Below, piece after piece: positions 5,176 to 17,020 of a DNA stretch of 23,859 nt. The DNA lies in IMG/VR virus record IMGVR_UViG_3300009414_000075, positions 1 through 23,859 of that record. One strand, given 5' to 3'. Position 1 is the stretch's first letter; each line of letters starts with the position of its first letter. The stretch is from a virus. The translations under genes were made by a program, and so were the position numbers. The notes beneath the pieces are model-generated. The model saw nothing but the letters and a program-made list of their open reading frames with translations. It had not been told where the DNA came from and made no database searches.

Positions 5176-6498
5176 TTACCCCTTCTTTAGTTCATCTACT
5201 TCGGCTTTTAATTCTTTAATTGCTTCAATAAGAACACCAACAAGATTGCCGTAAGCAACTGACATATATTCCCCTTTATCATGTACTACTTCTGGCATTA
5301 TTTTTTGCACTTCTTGAGCAATCACACCTGTGCCTTGTCTACCATCTCTAGTAAAAGTGACACCTCTCATATTTTTTACTTTAGTCAAAGCATCTTCAAT
5401 AGTCTCAATATCATCTTTTAGACGTTCATCTGAGAAAGCTGTAACATCATTATTAAAAGTCGCAGCCCCAGCTCCACTCATATCAAGTGTTAATGCTGTT
5501 ATAGTTGAGCCACCATCATTACCTTTAAAAATTATATCTTTATCGGATATTGCGGAGTGAACAACAAAATCACTAGAACTATTTGTGAACCTTCCAATCT
5601 CCGTACCAGCATCTTTAAAAATAACATCTCCACCATCAGCATCTAATACAATATCTCCAGCTACATCTACTGTTAAATCACCACTAGATAAGTCAATTTC
5701 AGTTCCATCAATAGTTATATTATCTACTATTACACCAGCATTTGCTGTGACTGTGCTGTTAAAACTAGCAGCTCCTGCTGCACTCATATCTAGTGTTAAT
5801 GCTGTAATCCCACTACCACCATCATTACCTTGAATAAGGACATCCTTGTCGCTAACCAAAGATTTTATGGTTAGGTTATCGCTATCCATGCTAACATGAC
5901 CGACATTCGTACTACCATCTTTAAAGATAACTTCTTCTCCACCAGCATCTAATATAATATCTGCTGCTACATCTAAAGTTAAATCTCCAGAGGATAAGTC
6001 TATTTCTGTACCATCTATAGTTATATTATCAACAGTAACTCCTGCATCAGCATCAACTACACCACTAAAAGTTGCAGCTCCAGCTGTTAAAGTAGTTACA
6101 TGAGTAACAGCATCAACAACATTAGTACCGTCGTTATACACCCACATAGTTTTGCCTGTTGGAACAGCAATTCCTGTTCCTGATGGAGTTTTAATAGTGA
6201 TTGTGTCAGCAGTACCATTATTAACTATATAAGGTTTTTCTATAGCTGGAACTACTAAATTTTGTGCTCCACCTGATGTACCTGTTAAATTAAGTCTTAG
6301 ATGACGAGCTGATTGTGTTCCGTTTGAATCTGTTAAGGTAAGAGTTGCTGTACCACTTGAAAATGCTACATCAACTGATTCGGCAATAGCTTCTTCTATT
6401 GCTGTACCTAAATTAGTATTAGTTGTGGTACCCCAGCTTCCTGATTGTTCTCCAGTACCTATTAATTCTATTTTTAAATTTGAATATGAACTAGCCAT
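5176..6498 (-). CDS. tail fibre with C-terminal S74 intramolecular chaperone
   Basis: 440 residues. The N-terminal ~145 residues (MASSYSNLKIELIGTGEQSG, WGTTTNTNLGTAIEEAI) resemble the virion-proximal domain of marine phage fibres. Residues 151-252 and 253-352 are two copies of a ~100-residue beta-repeat (DNITIDGTEIDLSSGDLT ... SDKDVLIQGNDGG). Residues 356-440 are a peptidase S74 chaperone: SDERLKDDIETI gives the Ser356/Lys361 dyad, followed by GVIAQEVQKIMPEVV and a C-terminal coiled-coil helix. Members of this family trimerise the fibre and then cut themselves off just before that serine, leaving a mature fibre of about 355 residues. The start has a strong AAAGGAGAAAGGAG ribosome region. The same beta-repeat occurs in the 1141-residue fibre. 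Confidence 0.88.
   Translation of the reverse strand: MASSYSNLKIELIGTGEQSGSWGTTTNTNLGTAIEEAIAESVDVAFSSGTATLTLTDSNGTQSARHLRLNLTGTSGGAQNLVVPAIEKPYIVNNGTADTITIKTPSGTGIAVPTGKTMWVYNDGTNVVDAVTHVTTLTAGAATFSGVVDADAGVTVDNITIDGTEIDLSSGDLTLDVAADIILDAGGEEVIFKDGSTNVGHVSMDSDNLTIKSLVSDKDVLIQGNDGGSGITALTLDMSAAGAASFNSTVTANAGVIVDNITIDGTEIDLSSGDLTVDVAGDIVLDADGGDVIFKDAGTEIGRFTNSSSDFVVHSAISDKDIIFKGNDGGSTITALTLDMSGAGAATFNNDVTAFSDERLKDDIETIEDALTKVKNMRGVTFTRDGRQGTGVIAQEVQKIMPEVVHDKGEYMSVAYGNLVGVLIEAIKELKAEVDELKKG
5443..6048 (-). repeat. two tandem copies of the ~100-codon fibre module
   Basis: Codons 151-252 and 253-352 of the S74 fibre are copies with a period of 102 codons. Each starts with [DN]AGV-x-VDNITIDGTEIDL and ends with ITALTLDMS-x-AGAA-x-FN. 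The first copy is also nearly identical in protein sequence to a stretch of the large fibre at 11875-12168. Confidence 0.85.
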
Positions 6499-9096: not shown

Positions 9097-12000
9097 CTAT
9101 ATTTCTGCATCAAATTGTACAAAAGCACTTCCAGATTGAAACACACCACAAGGATGTGTAGCAGTCATTCCTGTTCCACTTACTGTTATATCAGCCTCAA
9201 AACAATCAACATCAAGATAAGTTGCACTAAAACCAGTACTCGTCGGTTGATGACTATTGCTATAGAACCAAGACATAGTTCCTGACTGTGTAGCAGTCGG
9301 AGCTGCTCTAAATTGAGTAGGGAATAATCCCATTCTGGCTCTAGCTAATGTATTATTAGCATTAGCTGAACCTATCAATGGTGGCTGAGTATATTTTTGA
9401 AAGTAGCGTTGACATCTTTCAAAATTTTCTCCATAACTTTCGTGTTGAAATGATGGAATAGTATCTGAGGTATATGAACCGACTTCTAATCGCATTCCAG
9501 TTATTTTAATATCATTGTCAGTAGCATCAAAGAATGAACCAATCCCTGCTGCTGAGTTAGCATTATTAGTAGAAGCCCATGAACTCGCTAAAGTTCCACC
9601 TGTATAAGTTGCTCCAGCATGTAACCACATTCTGACACGCAAACTTTCCGCATTGTCATTGTCAAATTTTCCAGTAGTATCTGCTGCAAAGGATAATATA
9701 TGTTGAGTCCATGAGGTTGCAGAAGTAAAGGTTTTTGCTATATGTCTAGTGTTATCAATATCTGATAATTCTATTACATAAACTTTTGCATCTTGAGCTT
9801 TCATATAAAATGAAATGGTAATGGCTTTAGCACTAGAAAATCCTTTTTCAATCATTTGTAAATTTTGGCCTTCTATTCTCCAATCTAAAGTAAAGAGTTC
9901 TCCTGTCGCTATACTAGTATCTGCTGTAGTGCAATCTAAATGTAAACAATTAGAAAACCCAGCTAAATCTGTGATTGCTGTACGAGCTGATGTAAACCTA
10001 CCTGCACTCGTTGCTCCAATCGTATGTCTTACACGATCTACCGTAACATAGCCTTCATCTCCATCTCCTAATGCAGCTTCCGAAGTACTTCTTTGTGCCA
10101 CTTGCATATCGCCATTTATAATAATCGCTTTAGAATTACGTCTTAAAGAATCTCCACCCGATGCAGTTTCCCAAGCAATCGTGCCAGAACCATCAGTAGT
10201 TAATACTTGACCATCATCACCATCAGCAGTAGGCATTGAAAATGCAACGCTATTAGAAGTTAATATTAATTTACTTCCATCTGATGATACTGATTCCCCT
10301 GCATCATGTAACTGTAATGTTGGACTTCCACCACTATCTGTTAAAAGTAGCCCTGTGTCATGTACATGAGTTAAAGCAATTTCATCATTACCACCAAAAG
10401 ATAAAATCGCACCATCATGCTGTAGCTCTAAGTCTTGAGTTAGAGTAACATCTCCATCTGCCCCTATTGCTATTGCATCTACATCAGAAGCTGAACCTAT
10501 TGTTCCAGCATCTTTAATTATTATGTCATCTACAAATGTAACGATACCTGTACTTGCTATTGTTATAGCTGAAGTGCTTGAAGCAACACCAATCGTTGCA
10601 GCATCTTTCAATACTAAGTCATCTACTAAAGTAACGATACCTGTAGCAGCAATGGTTATAGCGGATGTACTTGAAGCTGAACCAATAGTACCTGCGTCTG
10701 GTACCACAATCCCTGCGTTAAATGTAGCTGCTCCAGCAGCACTCATATCAAAAGTCAATGCTGAAATAGGAGAGCCCCCATCATTACCTTGGAATATCAT
10801 ATCCTTATCACTAACTAACGACTTAATAGTTAGATTATCACTATCCATACTAACGTGACCTACATTAGTACTACCATCTTTAAAGATAACTTCATCACCT
10901 GCTGCATCTAATACAATATCACCTGCTGAATCTAAAGTAACTGTTGTTCCATCGGCCTCAAATGTACCATCAGCAGTTATTGTAATATTTGCTGCTGCCG
11001 CTGCCGCATCGGTAGTTACGATTGATAAAGTTCCATTTGTTCCAGCGGTAAGTACAGCTGTATCACTTGCTGACCCAGTCATAGTAACGACTTTGCCATC
11101 TACAGCCACATCGTCTACAGTAAGAGCTGTCAGAGTACCTAATGAAGTTATATTAGTCTGTGCTGCCGTAGTTAAAGTAACATCAGCAACATAAGTTTTT
11201 ACTCTTGACATGGCAGATTTTCTTTCTGTTCCACTAGCATTATCATCAACAATAATTAAATCAGCATCTGCAAGACCTGCTCCAATATCTGTAGCACCAT
11301 CAATATCTAGTGCACCAACGTCAACTTTATTAGCTGTAGAAATAGTAGCTAATTTACTATCAGCAATCGCAGCACCTGAAGCTACACTTGCGTTAACCAC
11401 AGCATCAGCTGCTAATTGGTCAGCACCCACAGCATCATCTGCAATTTTTGCTTGAGTTACATTATCATCAACAATAGAAGCAGTTACTACTGCACTTGCC
11501 GCTAATTGGTCAGCTCCTATAGCATCATCTGCCATTTTAGCTTGAGTTACATTATCATCAACAATAGAAGCAGTTACGACTGCACTAGCTGCTAATTGGT
11601 CAGCTCCTACAGCATCATCTGCAATTTTTGCTTGGGTTACATTGTCATCAACAATAGAAGCGGTTACTACTGCACTAGCTGCTAATTGGTCAGCTCCTAC
11701 AGCATCATCACCTATCATAGCTTGTTCTACTGCATCATTTGCGATAGTTACAGCACCACCCGAAGCAATACTAACATCACCACTTACTGCAACTTCTTCA
11801 TAGCTAGTGCCATCACTTACTAAAATTTTTGCGGACGTTACATCAGGCATTATTAATTTGCCCCCAACTGTAACATTATCATTAAAAGCAGCTGCTCCTG
11901 CAGCACTCATATCCAGAGTTAAAGCTGTAATACCAGAACCCCCGTCATTACCTTGAATAAGGACATCTTTATCACTAACTAGGGATTTAATAGTTAAATT

Positions 12001-12522
12001 ATCACTATCCATACTGACGTGGCCTACATTAGTACTACCATCTTTAAAGATAACCTCATCTCCAGCAGCATCTAAAATAATATCCCCCGCTACATCTAAG
12101 GTTAAATCTCCTGAACTTAAGTCTATTTCTGTACCATCTATATTTATGTTATCAACCGTAATACCTGCATCAACCGCTAATGCTCCTGATAATGTTAAAT
12201 TACCACTAGCATCTAATACAGTTGCTTTACTAGCTGGTAAACAACAAAATATAGTTTTTGTTCCTGCAGAAAAATCTACTACACTATCGCTATTAGAACT
12301 AGATATGATTGTAGTACGAGCAAGGGTTGAGCTATCTGAAGATAAAGTACCTAAACCTACTTCAAATTCTGCATTTAGTACAATACAGTAATAAGTTGTA
12401 TTACTATTACCAATACCTACAGCAAAAGTTTCAAACCCAGAAACAGCTCCAGCTAAAGTAACTGTGCCAGTACCTGTAGTTGAGGTAGTTTCTTTAACTC
12501 TATCATTAAGAACAAGTGCCAT
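9097..12522 (-). CDS. large repeat-built tail fibre with C-terminal receptor-binding region
   Basis: 1141 residues. The N-terminus (MALVLNDRVKETTSTTGTGT, FAVGIGNSNTTYYCIVLNAE) is a virion-attachment domain typical of marine phage fibres. Residues 119-216 carry the ~100-residue beta module shared with the S74 fibre; a shorter second copy covers about 531-604. Residues 271-375 are 3.5 tandem 30-residue repeats (ADDAVGADQLAASAVVTASI...), and residues 609-701 are three 31-residue repeats (DAGTIGSASSTSAITIA...). From about residue 795 (SKAIIINGDMQVAQRST) there is a lectin-like C-terminal region ending in IPSFQHESYGENFERCQRYF and a distal tail, the usual receptor-binding end. Unlike the other fibre it has no S74 chaperone. 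AGGAGATATAA precedes the ATG. Likely a trimeric host-recognition fibre. Confidence 0.85.
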   Translation of the reverse strand: MALVLNDRVKETTSTTGTGTVTLAGAVSGFETFAVGIGNSNTTYYCIVLNAEFEVGLGTLSSDSSTLARTTIISSSNSDSVVDFSAGTKTIFCCLPASKATVLDASGNLTLSGALAVDAGITVDNINIDGTEIDLSSGDLTLDVAGDIILDAAGDEVIFKDGSTNVGHVSMDSDNLTIKSLVSDKDVLIQGNDGGSGITALTLDMSAAGAAAFNDNVTVGGKLIMPDVTSAKILVSDGTSYEEVAVSGDVSIASGGAVTIANDAVEQAMIGDDAVGADQLAASAVVTASIVDDNVTQAKIADDAVGADQLAASAVVTASIVDDNVTQAKMADDAIGADQLAASAVVTASIVDDNVTQAKIADDAVGADQLAADAVVNASVASGAAIADSKLATISTANKVDVGALDIDGATDIGAGLADADLIIVDDNASGTERKSAMSRVKTYVADVTLTTAAQTNITSLGTLTALTVDDVAVDGKVVTMTGSASDTAVLTAGTNGTLSIVTTDAAAAAANITITADGTFEADGTTVTLDSAGDIVLDAAGDEVIFKDGSTNVGHVSMDSDNLTIKSLVSDKDMIFQGNDGGSPISALTFDMSAAGAATFNAGIVVPDAGTIGSASSTSAITIAATGIVTLVDDLVLKDAATIGVASSTSAITIASTGIVTFVDDIIIKDAGTIGSASDVDAIAIGADGDVTLTQDLELQHDGAILSFGGNDEIALTHVHDTGLLLTDSGGSPTLQLHDAGESVSSDGSKLILTSNSVAFSMPTADGDDGQVLTTDGSGTIAWETASGGDSLRRNSKAIIINGDMQVAQRSTSEAALGDGDEGYVTVDRVRHTIGATSAGRFTSARTAITDLAGFSNCLHLDCTTADTSIATGELFTLDWRIEGQNLQMIEKGFSSAKAITISFYMKAQDAKVYVIELSDIDNTRHIAKTFTSATSWTQHILSFAADTTGKFDNDNAESLRVRMWLHAGATYTGGTLASSWASTNNANSAAGIGSFFDATDNDIKITGMRLEVGSYTSDTIPSFQHESYGENFERCQRYFQKYTQPPLIGSANANNTLARARMGLFPTQFRAAPTATQSGTMSWFYSNSHQPTSTGFSATYLDVDCFEADITVSGTGMTATHPCGVFQSGSAFVQFDAEI
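10420..10698 (-). repeat. three 31-codon tandem repeats in the large fibre
   Basis: Codons 609-701 of the large fibre repeat DA[GA]TIG-x-AS-[SD]-x-[SD]-AI-x-I three times with a period of 31 codons (93 bases). The third copy has diverged most. Probably a beta-helical shaft. Confidence 0.8.
10711..10932 (-). repeat. second, shorter copy of the shared fibre module
   Basis: Codons 531-604 of the large fibre repeat the motif run AGDEVIFKDGSTNVGHVSMD ... SDKD-x-x-x-QGNDGGS found at 11875-12168 and in the S74 fibre. It lacks the ITVDN-IDGTEIDL opening. Confidence 0.8.
11398..11712 (-). repeat. 3.5 tandem 90-base repeats in the large fibre
   Basis: Codons 271-375 consist of a 30-codon unit (x-DDA-[VI]-GADQLAASAVVTASIVDDN-VTQAK) repeated three times and followed by half a copy. 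Copies are almost identical in protein and differ mainly at silent sites. Likely a fibre shaft whose length can change by unequal recombination. Confidence 0.9.
11875..12168 (-). repeat. fibre module shared with the S74 fibre gene
   Basis: Codons 119-216 of the large fibre match codons 151-248 of the S74 fibre at nearly every residue (DNINIDGTEIDLSSGDLTLD ... GITALTLDMSAAGAA), while the DNA differs at many third positions. Confidence 0.88.
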
Positions 12523-14439: not shown

Positions 14440-14589
14440 TTACTTCTTCCTTGGTTTAGTATGTCCGTAGCCTTTTTTCTTTAAGGCTAAGTGTTTAGCC
14501 ATAGTAGGGGCTTTTACACCTTTACCTGTTTTTTTGTCATACATCATATGAGCTTTAAAAGCTTTTTTCTTCATAACCTTTTTCTTCAT
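14440..14589 (-). CDS. 49-residue very basic protein
   Basis: MKKKVMKKKAFKAHMMYDKK, then GKGVKAPTMAKHLALKKKGY and a final GHTKPRKK. More than a third of residues are Lys or Arg. AGGAGAGATAT precedes the ATG at 14589. There are no cysteines and no membrane segment. It may bind nucleic acid or act in the virion interior, but nothing in the sequence proves this. It does not carry the RGDGIA tag of its neighbours. Confidence 0.7.
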   Translation of the reverse strand: MKKKVMKKKAFKAHMMYDKKTGKGVKAPTMAKHLALKKKGYGHTKPRKK

Positions 14590-14598
14590 ATATCTCTC

Positions 14599-15279
14599 CT
14601 ATATACTTTGTCTTTTAGGTACAATTCTTAAATCAGATTTTTCTCTATCTTCTGTTGAAGCTAACACCCACTGTTCTTCATACTCTTGTTTTAAAAACTG
14701 AGTTCTATCTCCTGCGTTAGGTATTTTTAAACTAAGATAGAAAGATAATCCTGCTACTAAACAAGGTAAAAACCTAAAGGGTATATCTTGGTTAGTAACC
14801 CCAGTACCTGCATCTTCAATTCTTTTGAGTGCCCAATAAACAAAGGTATAAGTATTATCTTCAGGAGCAGGCCACACATTAATAGTAGGTTGTGCTACTT
14901 GACGATTAATCCAAACTTGTACAGGTCTACCTGTAGAATTTTTATTAGGAATAACTCCATAAGAAGACGCTGATATTCTTGTAATATTTATATCTTCTTG
15001 GCTAGTTCCTGTGCCTGTCCTAATCACTTGTTCAAGTAAGTCAATAGTATCTGCAGGTAAATTATAAGTTATGGTGTCTTCAGTTAGAGAAACAGTACCT
15101 TCATCAATAGTCCAAAGATTAATACCTCTATTAGCCCATTCTGCCATTAGTAAATTTAAACTACGGCGAGCTGTACGTAAGTCATAACCTGTACGCATTT
15201 CTGATCCACATCTTTCAAATGCTTCTTCAACTATTTGGTTTAAATCTAAGTTAAACGCTGTTGTTCCTGATGTTGCCAT
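14599..15279 (-). CDS. gp4-like head-tail adaptor
   Basis: 226 residues. The N-terminus (NLDLNQIVEEAFERCGSEMR, YDLRTARRSLNLLMAEWANR) is an all-helical opening I associate with P22 gp4-like adaptors of marine phages. A beta domain follows (GTVSLTEDTITYNLPADTID, RPVQVWINRQVAQPTINVWP), then YTFVYWALKRIEDAG and a C-terminal helical arm (AGLSFYLSLKIPNAGDRTQF). It should bind the portal and carry the tail hub. The start overlaps the stop of the last tagged gene by one base (TAATG), with its ribosome site inside the tag codons. Assignment is by pattern and gene order. Confidence 0.8.
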   Translation of the reverse strand: MATSGTTAFNLDLNQIVEEAFERCGSEMRTGYDLRTARRSLNLLMAEWANRGINLWTIDEGTVSLTEDTITYNLPADTIDLLEQVIRTGTGTSQEDINITRISASSYGVIPNKNSTGRPVQVWINRQVAQPTINVWPAPEDNTYTFVYWALKRIEDAGTGVTNQDIPFRFLPCLVAGLSFYLSLKIPNAGDRTQFLKQEYEEQWVLASTEDREKSDLRIVPKRQSI

Positions 15280-15368
15280 TAGATAATTCTCCCTTTAGTT
15301 CTACCACGTTTAGCTATACCATCGCCACGATGAGATTTAGTTTTCTTTACTTTACCACCTTTTTTCAT
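15279..15368 (-). repeat. tag cassette copy 1
   Basis: Last 30 codons of tagged protein 1 including stop. Differs from copy 2 (15605-15694) at only two bases, both silent. The 3' end also holds the ribosome site and TAATG start of the next gene. Confidence 0.95.
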
Positions 15369-15605
15369 TTTCTTTTTGCTTTTCTTTTTATCCTTATCTC
15401 TTACTCTATCTTTATCTTTATAAATTTCTTGCATTTCCTTTAATCTTTTTTCTTTTAATCTTTTTACAACAGGAATTCTATCTGCTTCTAATCCAGGTAT
15501 AGCCAAAAATCTATTTCGAGCTTCTGGACTCTGTAGGTATTTTATAAAGGCTGTCTTATTTATCATTCTTGTTAATGGGTCTGTTTTTCTTCCTTTAATA
15601 GCCAT
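15279..15605 (-). CDS. tagged basic protein 1 (RGDGIA C-terminal tag)
   Basis: 108 residues. A unique body (MAIKGRKTDPLTRMINKTAF, IPGLEADRIPVVKRLKEKRL) is followed by a Lys/Asp tract and the 29-residue tag from MKKGGKVKKTKS to RGDGIAKRGRTKGRII. The tag peptide is identical to that of the next gene upstream. The start is a TAATG joint with that gene. The protein is highly basic and without membrane segment. The shared tag suggests that these proteins go to one place or bind one partner, such as the capsid interior or DNA; this is inference. Confidence 0.78.
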   Translation of the reverse strand: MAIKGRKTDPLTRMINKTAFIKYLQSPEARNRFLAIPGLEADRIPVVKRLKEKRLKEMQEIYKDKDRVRDKDKKKSKKKMKKGGKVKKTKSHRGDGIAKRGRTKGRII

Positions 15606-15694
15606 TAGATAATTCTCCCTTTAGTTCTACCACGTTTAGCAATACCATCGCCACGATGGGATTTAGTTTTCTTTACTTTACCACCTTTTTTCAT
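15605..15694 (-). repeat. tag cassette copy 2
   Basis: Last 30 codons of tagged protein 2 including stop; near-identical to copy 1 in DNA and identical in protein. Confidence 0.95.
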
Positions 15695-15895
15695 CCTTTT
15701 TCCACCTAATGGTCCTTTAGTAGCACCAAATTCCTCCTCACCACTAATATAAGGTGCATAATATCCACCCATTATTTTATCCATATCATTTAAAAGGCTT
15801 CTTTTACTCCTTTCTTTAAAGGTCCTATATTTGAGGTCGAGCTCCCTTCTTCTTTCTGGGGTCATTTTACGTCTTTTTGTAATCTGTCTAGCCAT
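15605..15895 (-). CDS. tagged basic protein 2 (RGDGIA C-terminal tag)
   Basis: 96 residues. The body (RQITKRRKMTPERRRELDLK, NDMDKIMGGYYAPYISGEEE) is unrelated to protein 1, but the last 29 residues are identical to it. It has an Arg/Lys-rich helical start and a Tyr/Gly middle. It is joined to both neighbours by TAATG overlaps. The ribosome site AGGGAG for the next gene lies within its own tag codons (TKGRI). The function is unknown. Confidence 0.78.
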   Translation of the reverse strand: MARQITKRRKMTPERRRELDLKYRTFKERSKRSLLNDMDKIMGGYYAPYISGEEEFGATKGPLGGKRMKKGGKVKKTKSHRGDGIAKRGRTKGRII

Positions 15896-15975
15896 TAGAC
15901 TATTCTCCCTTTAGTTCTACCACGTTTAGCAATACCATCGCCACGATGGGATTTAACTATACCGCCTTTTTTCAT
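15895..15975 (-). repeat. tag cassette copy 3
   Basis: Last 27 codons of tagged protein 3. The 3' half is almost identical in DNA to copies 1 and 2; the 5' half is shorter by three codons. Confidence 0.92.
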
Positions 15976-16314
15976 ACCTTTTTCCCTTTTATCTTCTTTT
16001 TTTAATACTGCTTGTGTTTTTAGATAGGCAGCTGTCTTTTTCTTAGACTCATCATCCTTCCTAGTACCCTTTAGGGTTGGAATGGGATTTCTGTAATCGC
16101 CTTTTCTATACTTAAATTTATCGTACATCGTAGCTTTAGTAGCTTTAATTCCTTCTCGTTTAGCGGCTATAAGTTTTTGTATTTCATCTTTTTGTTTGGG
16201 GTTAGCACTTTTCATAGCTTTTTTTAATTTTTCTATTTCTTTTCGCATACGATCTCTAACTGTTTCAACATGAAAGAAGCCGCTACTTTCTATGGTTTTT
16301 CCGCCTTGTGCCAT
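15895..16314 (-). CDS. tagged basic protein 3 (RGDGIA C-terminal tag)
   Basis: 139 residues. The body starts MAQGGKTIESSGFFHVETVR and contains a long charged helix (RMRKEIEKLKKAMKSANPKQ, DEIQKLIAAKREGIKATKAT), then a Tyr/Lys-rich segment (DKFKYRKGDYRNPIPTLKG). The tag is a shortened form, MKKGGIVKSHRGDGIAKRG then RTKGRIV, lacking the three-residue KKT insert. It is coupled by TAATG at both ends. The helix could form a coiled coil. The function is unknown. Confidence 0.77.
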   Translation of the reverse strand: MAQGGKTIESSGFFHVETVRDRMRKEIEKLKKAMKSANPKQKDEIQKLIAAKREGIKATKATMYDKFKYRKGDYRNPIPTLKGTRKDDESKKKTAAYLKTQAVLKKEDKREKGMKKGGIVKSHRGDGIAKRGRTKGRIV

Positions 16315-16394
16315 TAGACTATTCTCCCTTTAGTTCTACCACTTCTTGCTATACCATCGCCACGACGGGATTTAACTATGCCACCAGCTTTCTT
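16314..16394 (-). repeat. tag cassette copy 4
   Basis: Last 27 codons of tagged protein 4. Same length as copy 3, with several amino-acid changes (SRRGDGIARSGRTKGRIV). Confidence 0.9.
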
Positions 16395-16934
16395 TTTCTT
16401 ACTCTTTAAATTACTACTTCTCTCCAATAGTAGAGGAATACTTTTAACAGATAGAGGCACGCCTTTCTTTTTCTTTGCTACCTTTTTAGTAGATTGTTTC
16501 ATAGGTTTATCTAATTTTTCAATTTTTTTTAATAATGCTTTTCTTTCTTTTAAAGCTTTTTCTGCTAATGCTAAATTCTTATCTTTAATATGATAGTGCG
16601 TTTCCCAAAATTTATCAGTTGCTTTTTGGTCCAGCCTATCTTTTTCTGCAAAAGATGATGGTTTTTTTGCCTTAGCCGCCTTAGCACCTGCCTTCTTTTT
16701 AACTGCCTTACGTAGTCCAGAAGTAAAAACAGCAGAATGTAAATCTTGAGCCGCCTTAGTCGCCTTAGCACCTGCCTTCACACCTAAAGAACCTGGTATA
16801 ACTAAAGAAGCTATCTCTAGCCCCTTTCGAAAACTCTTTTTACCTTCAGGGTCTTTACGACCTGCTTTACGCTCTTGTTCCAATCTTGTTTTGATTGGAG
16901 ACTTACCACGTCTTGTACCAATTTTTCTAGCCAT
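16314..16934 (-). CDS. tagged basic protein 4 (RGDGIA-like C-terminal tag)
   Basis: 206 residues, the longest of the tagged set. The body includes a hydrophobic/Ala stretch (GLEIASLVIPGSLGVKAGAK), Ala/Lys repeats resembling DNA-binding tails (KKKAGAKAAKAKKPSSFAEK) and a helix (LALAEKALKERKALLKKIEK). The tag is diverged: AGGIVKSRRGDGIARSG then RTKGRIV. AGGAGCTTAAG precedes the ATG at 16934, 14 bases after the upstream tagged gene. The very high Lys/Ala content is histone-H1-like, so DNA condensation in the head is a reasonable but untested idea. Confidence 0.77.
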   Translation of the reverse strand: MARKIGTRRGKSPIKTRLEQERKAGRKDPEGKKSFRKGLEIASLVIPGSLGVKAGAKATKAAQDLHSAVFTSGLRKAVKKKAGAKAAKAKKPSSFAEKDRLDQKATDKFWETHYHIKDKNLALAEKALKERKALLKKIEKLDKPMKQSTKKVAKKKKGVPLSVKSIPLLLERSSNLKSKKKKAGGIVKSRRGDGIARSGRTKGRIV

Positions 16935-16948
16935 CTTAAGCTCCTAGA

Positions 16949-17020
16949 TTATCCTCTTGTCTTACCACGCATTGCAATACCATCACGAGGGCATTTACCA
17001 ACTTTACCGCCGTGTTTCAT
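16949..17020 (-). repeat. tag cassette copy 5 (diverged)
   Basis: Last 24 codons of the 46-residue gene: MKHGGKVGK then RDGIAMRGKTRG. Recognisable in protein, diverged in DNA. Confidence 0.8.

Follow-up and report, generated by a model that had tools for sequence, protein, structure and literature searches.

In T4-type phages, short intergenic repeats that combine a promoter with a stem-loop (PeSL) mediate gene shuffling between related phages, according to excerpts of two papers that cite the element (Arbiol 2010; Comeau 2014; cited in PMC4503421, PMC3797505). In cluster K mycobacteriophages, a repeated sequence (SAS) is tied to the translation starts of many genes; the excerpted account calls the function of its extended form (ESAS) unclear (PMC3203893). 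T4 internal proteins carry an N-terminal capsid-targeting signal that directs their packaging into the capsid (PMC12373910). Phage mosaicism can also arise by relaxed homologous recombination, in which phage recombinases join genomes at short homology (PMC3945230).

The gene array described here resembles PeSL in that gene-exchange breakpoints lie at repeated elements, but its repeat codes for the C-terminus of the upstream protein and includes a ribosome site and an overlapping stop and start. Like SAS, the repeat lies at the starts of different genes (102/105 abutting starts); the excerpted description of SAS, unlike the array, gives no common C-terminal peptide. No arms of the ESAS-type upstream 17-bp imperfect inverted repeat were found in the cassettes. 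As with T4 internal proteins, unrelated small proteins carry one short peptide and the set varies among close relatives, although here the peptide is C-terminal rather than N-terminal. What sets the array apart from mosaicism by relaxed recombination is that a coding cassette, repeated several times per genome, supplies the short homology.

Tag cassettes and array layout

In the window (the whole stretch of DNA analysed, a 23.9 kb virus record) the minus strand encodes the structural genes. Six small genes sit between two conserved anchors, the gene of a DUF6321 protein (17654-17358, minus strand) and the head-tail adaptor gene (15279-14599, minus strand; Pfam PF24175, SU10_adaptor). Four of the six, coding for 206, 139, 96 and 108 aa (16934-15279, minus strand), have unrelated bodies and one common tag, with consensus ...RGDGIA(K/R)(R/S)GRTKGRI(V/I).

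The bodies, all on the minus strand, differ in their relationships. That of the 108-aa gene (15369-15605) has a homologue in L084/L062 that bears the other tag allele, and the 96-aa gene (body 15695-15895) matches relatives beyond the window phage by its tag only. The body of the 139-aa gene (15976-16314) has distant homologues in L018, L083 and L065, the last with the other tag class; the AlphaFold model of this protein has a helical body, but with pLDDT below 50 in the tag and a mean of 61 it could not support a fold search. At the N-terminus of the 206-aa gene product (body 16389-16934), 51 aa match the gene adjoining the adaptor in L018 at 76% identity.

Tag copies 1 (15279-15368) and 2 (15605-15694), both on the minus strand, are each 29 codons plus a stop (90 nt) and code for the same peptide, MKKGGKVKKTKSHRGDGIAKRGRTKGRII, ahead of the stop. 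Two silent substitutions separate them, at 15333 (TCT/TCC, Ser) and 15315 (ATA/ATT, Ile) and at the corresponding bases of copy 2. A blastn alignment of the two spans 94 nt at 97.9% identity, reaching into the ATG of the following gene, and a repeat finder extends it to 115 nt at 90%. In ACT AAA GGG AGA ATT ATC TAA TG, the ribosome-site core GGGAG lies 9 nt ahead of the ATG, and all four tagged genes have this core at this spacing. The stop and start overlap as TAATG after all four window tags; copy 1 overlaps the adaptor ATG (15277-15279) and copy 2 the ATG of the next gene. Copies 3 (15895-15975; MKKGGIVKSHRGDGIAKRGRTKGRIV, then the stop) and 4 (16314-16388; AGGIVKSRRGDGIARSGRTKGRIV, then the stop), also on the minus strand, are of the same type and more diverged. 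The preliminary description had reported the 90-nt copies with two silent differences, a ribosome site for the next gene within the codons for TKGRI, and the TAATG overlap; these observations are confirmed.

A second cassette type lies ahead of the ATG of the 206-aa gene (16935-17020, minus strand; MKHGGKVGKCPRDGIAMRGKTRG, a stop, then TCTAGGAGCTTAAG). It closes a 46-aa gene (17089-16949) as CPRDGIAMRGKTRG, a stop, then TCTAGGAGCTTAAGATG, with the ribosome site outside the tag, and stands directly ahead of the adaptor in L003 and L004. A third tag form, seen in L126, L127, L157, L108, L142 and others, has a short extension after the tag with a GGYC-like end (e.g. ADGIASKGKTKGKMVKMMGGGYCG).

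Other readings of the cassette were considered. Promoter and terminator readings were rejected: promoter-like sites are at the shuffled level, with no excess, no terminator was found on the coding strand (three terminator-like sites all lie on the non-coding plus strand), and folds are weak (z -0.7 to -1.8). The tag copies have in common a hairpin with a CATCG/CGATG-type stem and a 3-nt loop. An integron-like attC reading was also rejected, as the common hairpin is only a short stem around GTGGCGA and folding is near shuffled values.

Variation is not confined to the array. Relatives also differ in the spacing from the adaptor gene to the small conserved gene that follows it (14440-14599 in the window), with an offset of about 680 to 1190 nt, so gain and loss happen immediately downstream of the adaptor too. 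In a related spring-water phage (MW202675), the adaptor is directly followed by an annotated intron-associated endonuclease (L193:5690-6346). At 9097-12522 (minus strand), a large fibre-like ORF of 1141 aa holds four spaced 90-nt direct repeats at 11306-11747 and has 291-nt segments in common with a neighbouring tail-fibre-like ORF (5176-6498).

Turnover of tagged genes among relatives

An adaptor-gene search found 537 encoding stretches in viral contigs, from which 80 loci were kept, and a search with the tag-bearing 96-aa protein brought in 80 loci; the mapped set comprises 125 related loci. The gene order capsid, DUF6321, variable region, adaptor is retained in relatives, and 72 of the 74 loci having both anchors contain one to five tagged genes. 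The mapped loci hold 190 distinct tagged proteins, whose bodies fall into 65 groups. Where the following start touches or overlaps the stop of the tag, a Shine-Dalgarno-like core lies within the tag codons in 102/105 cases. With so many tagged proteins and such consistency of the ribosome site, the cassette is not a product of chance. The sole residues common to 80 representatives are GG..DG.A..G.T.G, all in the C-terminal tag. Almost none of the tagged proteins has a Pfam match; in one body type, only the N-terminal 40–50 aa match PHROG families named virion structural protein.

The tagged phages are a widespread group, mostly uncultured and aquatic. A cultured member, Planktothrix phage Pag-Yong1 (L194:3770-4696, OL906435), has one tagged gene, annotated hypothetical, which ends GRDGCAKRGRTKGRFI and sits two places upstream of the portal-adaptor gene. 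A tagged protein of the Pag-Yong1 type occurs likewise in records OQ594354 and PP438419. A tblastn search of phage records with the short tag peptide gave no match; this search was blind, since Pag-Yong1 carries the tag. Literature searches on DUF6321 and on a described C-terminal tag returned nothing useful.

We measured turnover in 41 pairs of loci whose adaptor genes have a DNA identity of 93% or more. In these pairs, tagged bodies were missing or replaced in 104/148 comparisons and untagged genes of the same interval in 31/290; the tag remained in 68 of the 104. A fixed set of bodies in all relatives, with no breakpoints in the tag DNA, was the outcome that the preliminary description had set against its own interpretation, and these counts contradict it. 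Comparison of the 125 mapped loci for gain or loss of bodies with breakpoints in the cassettes was positive.

The edges of replaced segments are not randomly placed, with the reservation, for all counts drawn from pairs, that pairs of loci are non-independent and gene starts were called heuristically. Of the 5' edges, 46/100 lay no more than 10 nt from a start codon (null mean 7.9, maximum 17), while 40/102 3' edges fell in the tag (null 14.5, maximum 26) and 26/102 at the next start (null 7.9). A narrow definition of the tag leaves about twofold enrichment of 3' edges (18 versus 8.7). Start-codon edges pooled number 72 against 15.8 expected, which 0/2000 shuffles reach. DNA comparison of these relatives thus shows bodies or whole tagged genes swapped, gained or lost between them, and the edges of these changes lie at starts and in the tag.

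Start-codon edges, the strongest signal, are also what ordinary mosaicism would produce, that is, random illegitimate recombination plus selection for joints at gene boundaries, with the tag DNA playing no part and the protein needing its tag. The gain and loss of untagged genes fits that account as well. The lopsidedness of the edges, 5' at starts and 3' in tags, speaks against it and is as exchange between two cassettes predicts: homology would stop at the start codon that closes the upstream cassette and resume at the beginning of the next tag.

Individual junctions include single tagged genes gained or lost exactly from ATG to ATG (L008/L009, L066/L052, L074/L080). In L008, AAAACATA runs directly into the adaptor, ATGGCAACATC, without an intervening tagged gene. 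In L009, whose adaptor is 99.2% identical, AAAACATA is followed by ATGGCTAAAG, the start of a 103-aa tagged gene, and then by GGATAGTATA joined to GTGGCGACATC. One 133-aa tagged gene (MVDKTK133) occupies the identical site in L052 and L080 (adaptors 99.8% identical to L066 and 97.1% to L074, respectively), and L018 has three tagged genes absent from L014 (adaptor 97.5%). The window differs from L003/L004 (adaptor 96.2%) in the cassette type abutting the adaptor; these two contigs begin 161 and 547 nt before the adaptor, and the absence of the four window bodies concerns the adaptor-adjoining stretch only. Several whole-gene insertions follow an untagged gene and match the recipient junction over about 5–8 nt (TA/ATGGC, the slash marking the joint), and tag homology alone therefore cannot account for them. 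The few bases in common at insertions of the L008/L009 type favour ordinary mosaicism.

Such junctions could in principle be artefacts, formed where short-read assemblers fused separate phages across the repeated tag. Short repeats as nearly identical as this one are typical sites of chimeric contigs, and all loci are metagenome contigs. Against this, the window array recurs in datasets 3300008220, 3300025270 and 3300025251; the L032-L035 arrangement occurs in four datasets, and L009/L010, L013/L015 and L083/L188 in two each, though some of all these may be re-assemblies of related samples. MVDKTK133 stands at one site in different lineages, and swapped flanks differ over DNA far longer than the tag. 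We consider misassembly a very improbable explanation.

Exchange within the tag DNA

Crossovers can be placed within the tag codons themselves. L036 and L039 are 99.3% identical starting 53 nt before the adaptor ATG, with unrelated bodies upstream; the body in L036 has its homologue in L028, a locus with the other 3' tag allele and an adaptor 82% identical. Between L039 and L041, identity is 97–100% across the preceding gene and the body (body 100%), drops to 83–90% in the tag and is 84% for the adaptors, so the change lies inside the tag. In L039 and L040, 92 nt of tag sequence are identical, with unrelated bodies on one side and 85%-identical adaptors on the other, and in L013/L083 a 330-nt tagged gene is >99% identical beside 84% adaptors.

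All four combinations of the 5' (S/A) and 3' (TKGR/TRGR) alleles occur among 21 distinct tag haplotypes, and the spacing of incompatible sites is that expected under recombination (PHI-like test, p=0.0008; p=0.006 for the core only). Judged from these pairs, alleles and sites, the tag DNA is shown to be recombinant and common to separate lineages. A codon-by-codon gradient of tag identity, comparing same-downstream with same-body pairs, was dropped because the same-body pairs come from more distant phages.

Ordinary mosaicism accounts poorly for these data: the crossovers within tag codons (L036/L039, L039/L041), the identity of tag silent sites in L039/L040 though their adaptors differ by 15%, and the recombination detected by the PHI-like test all argue against tag DNA being a bystander. 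We regard it as unlikely.

Tags within one genome average 94% identical despite different bodies, and window tags are 75–87% identical to tags of homologous bodies elsewhere. Body nucleotide identities of unrelated pairs in this comparison were left unused, being inflated by omitted gap columns. The resemblance among tags of one genome, with copies 1 and 2 just two silent bases apart, might reflect growth of the array by duplication of one ancestral tagged gene, the bodies diverging fast and the tags alike by descent only. However, bodies within an array are unrelated, and homologous bodies occur in other genomes, where they carry another tag allele and occupy different positions. Loci whose adaptors are 99% identical also carry wholly different bodies, which leaves no time for divergence; we give duplication very little credence.

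Proposed mechanism and meaning

The reading we favour, and hold to be very likely, is that tag, stop, ribosome site and next start together form a reusable junction for the exchange of bodies. The variable gene array that holds these junctions is bounded by the major-capsid/DUF6321 genes on one side and the adaptor on the other. Co-infecting phages would recombine homologously, probably by annealing, in about 50–90 nt of near-identical tag DNA; since the crossover would fall within the near-identical tag, the body would be exchanged and the tag, reading frame and translational coupling left intact. Gains after untagged genes may rely on the few matching bases at TA/ATGGC plus selection for a working stop and start; such insertions would need another route or donor flanks. 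Homologues of RecT, RecA, YqaJ and Erf were not found in the searched 58–61 kb relatives, so no recombinase was identified there. Rad52-like phage recombinases, reported to be active on short homologies, offer a precedent (PMC3945230).

The preliminary description proposed that recombination between copies would insert or delete whole bodies while keeping tag and translation intact. As an interpretation of sequence data this largely holds, with two changes. The exchange is shown between phage lineages, and none was observed between copies inside one genome (the window's own contigs, L001, L002, L159 and the analysed stretch of L161, carry identical sets of bodies); and the insertions after untagged genes are not explained by tag homology alone. 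Unequal crossing-over between copies within one genome is possible.

A further, tentative suggestion, which we think rather improbable as it stands, is that the tag acts as a signal for virion loading or anchoring and that the array is an exchangeable cargo rack whose exchange site is the tag DNA itself. Phages would then collect small proteins, each attached to one C-terminal signal, for delivery together with their DNA, for example to counter host defences. If true, the T4 internal-protein system would have a C-terminal counterpart coupled to recombination.

Cassette-mediated shuffling in these phages is well supported as real; cassette-mediated phage gene shuffling is already known, and this coding form of it is new. 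The usual account of phage mosaicism is random joining plus selection. In this array one short coding element appears to serve as protein tag, ribosome site and recombination junction together, and near-identical natural relatives make the junction role readable to single-base resolution. The 65 body groups with one sorting-like tag flag a large reservoir of unannotated small proteins, for which Pag-Yong1, being cultured, is a laboratory entry point.
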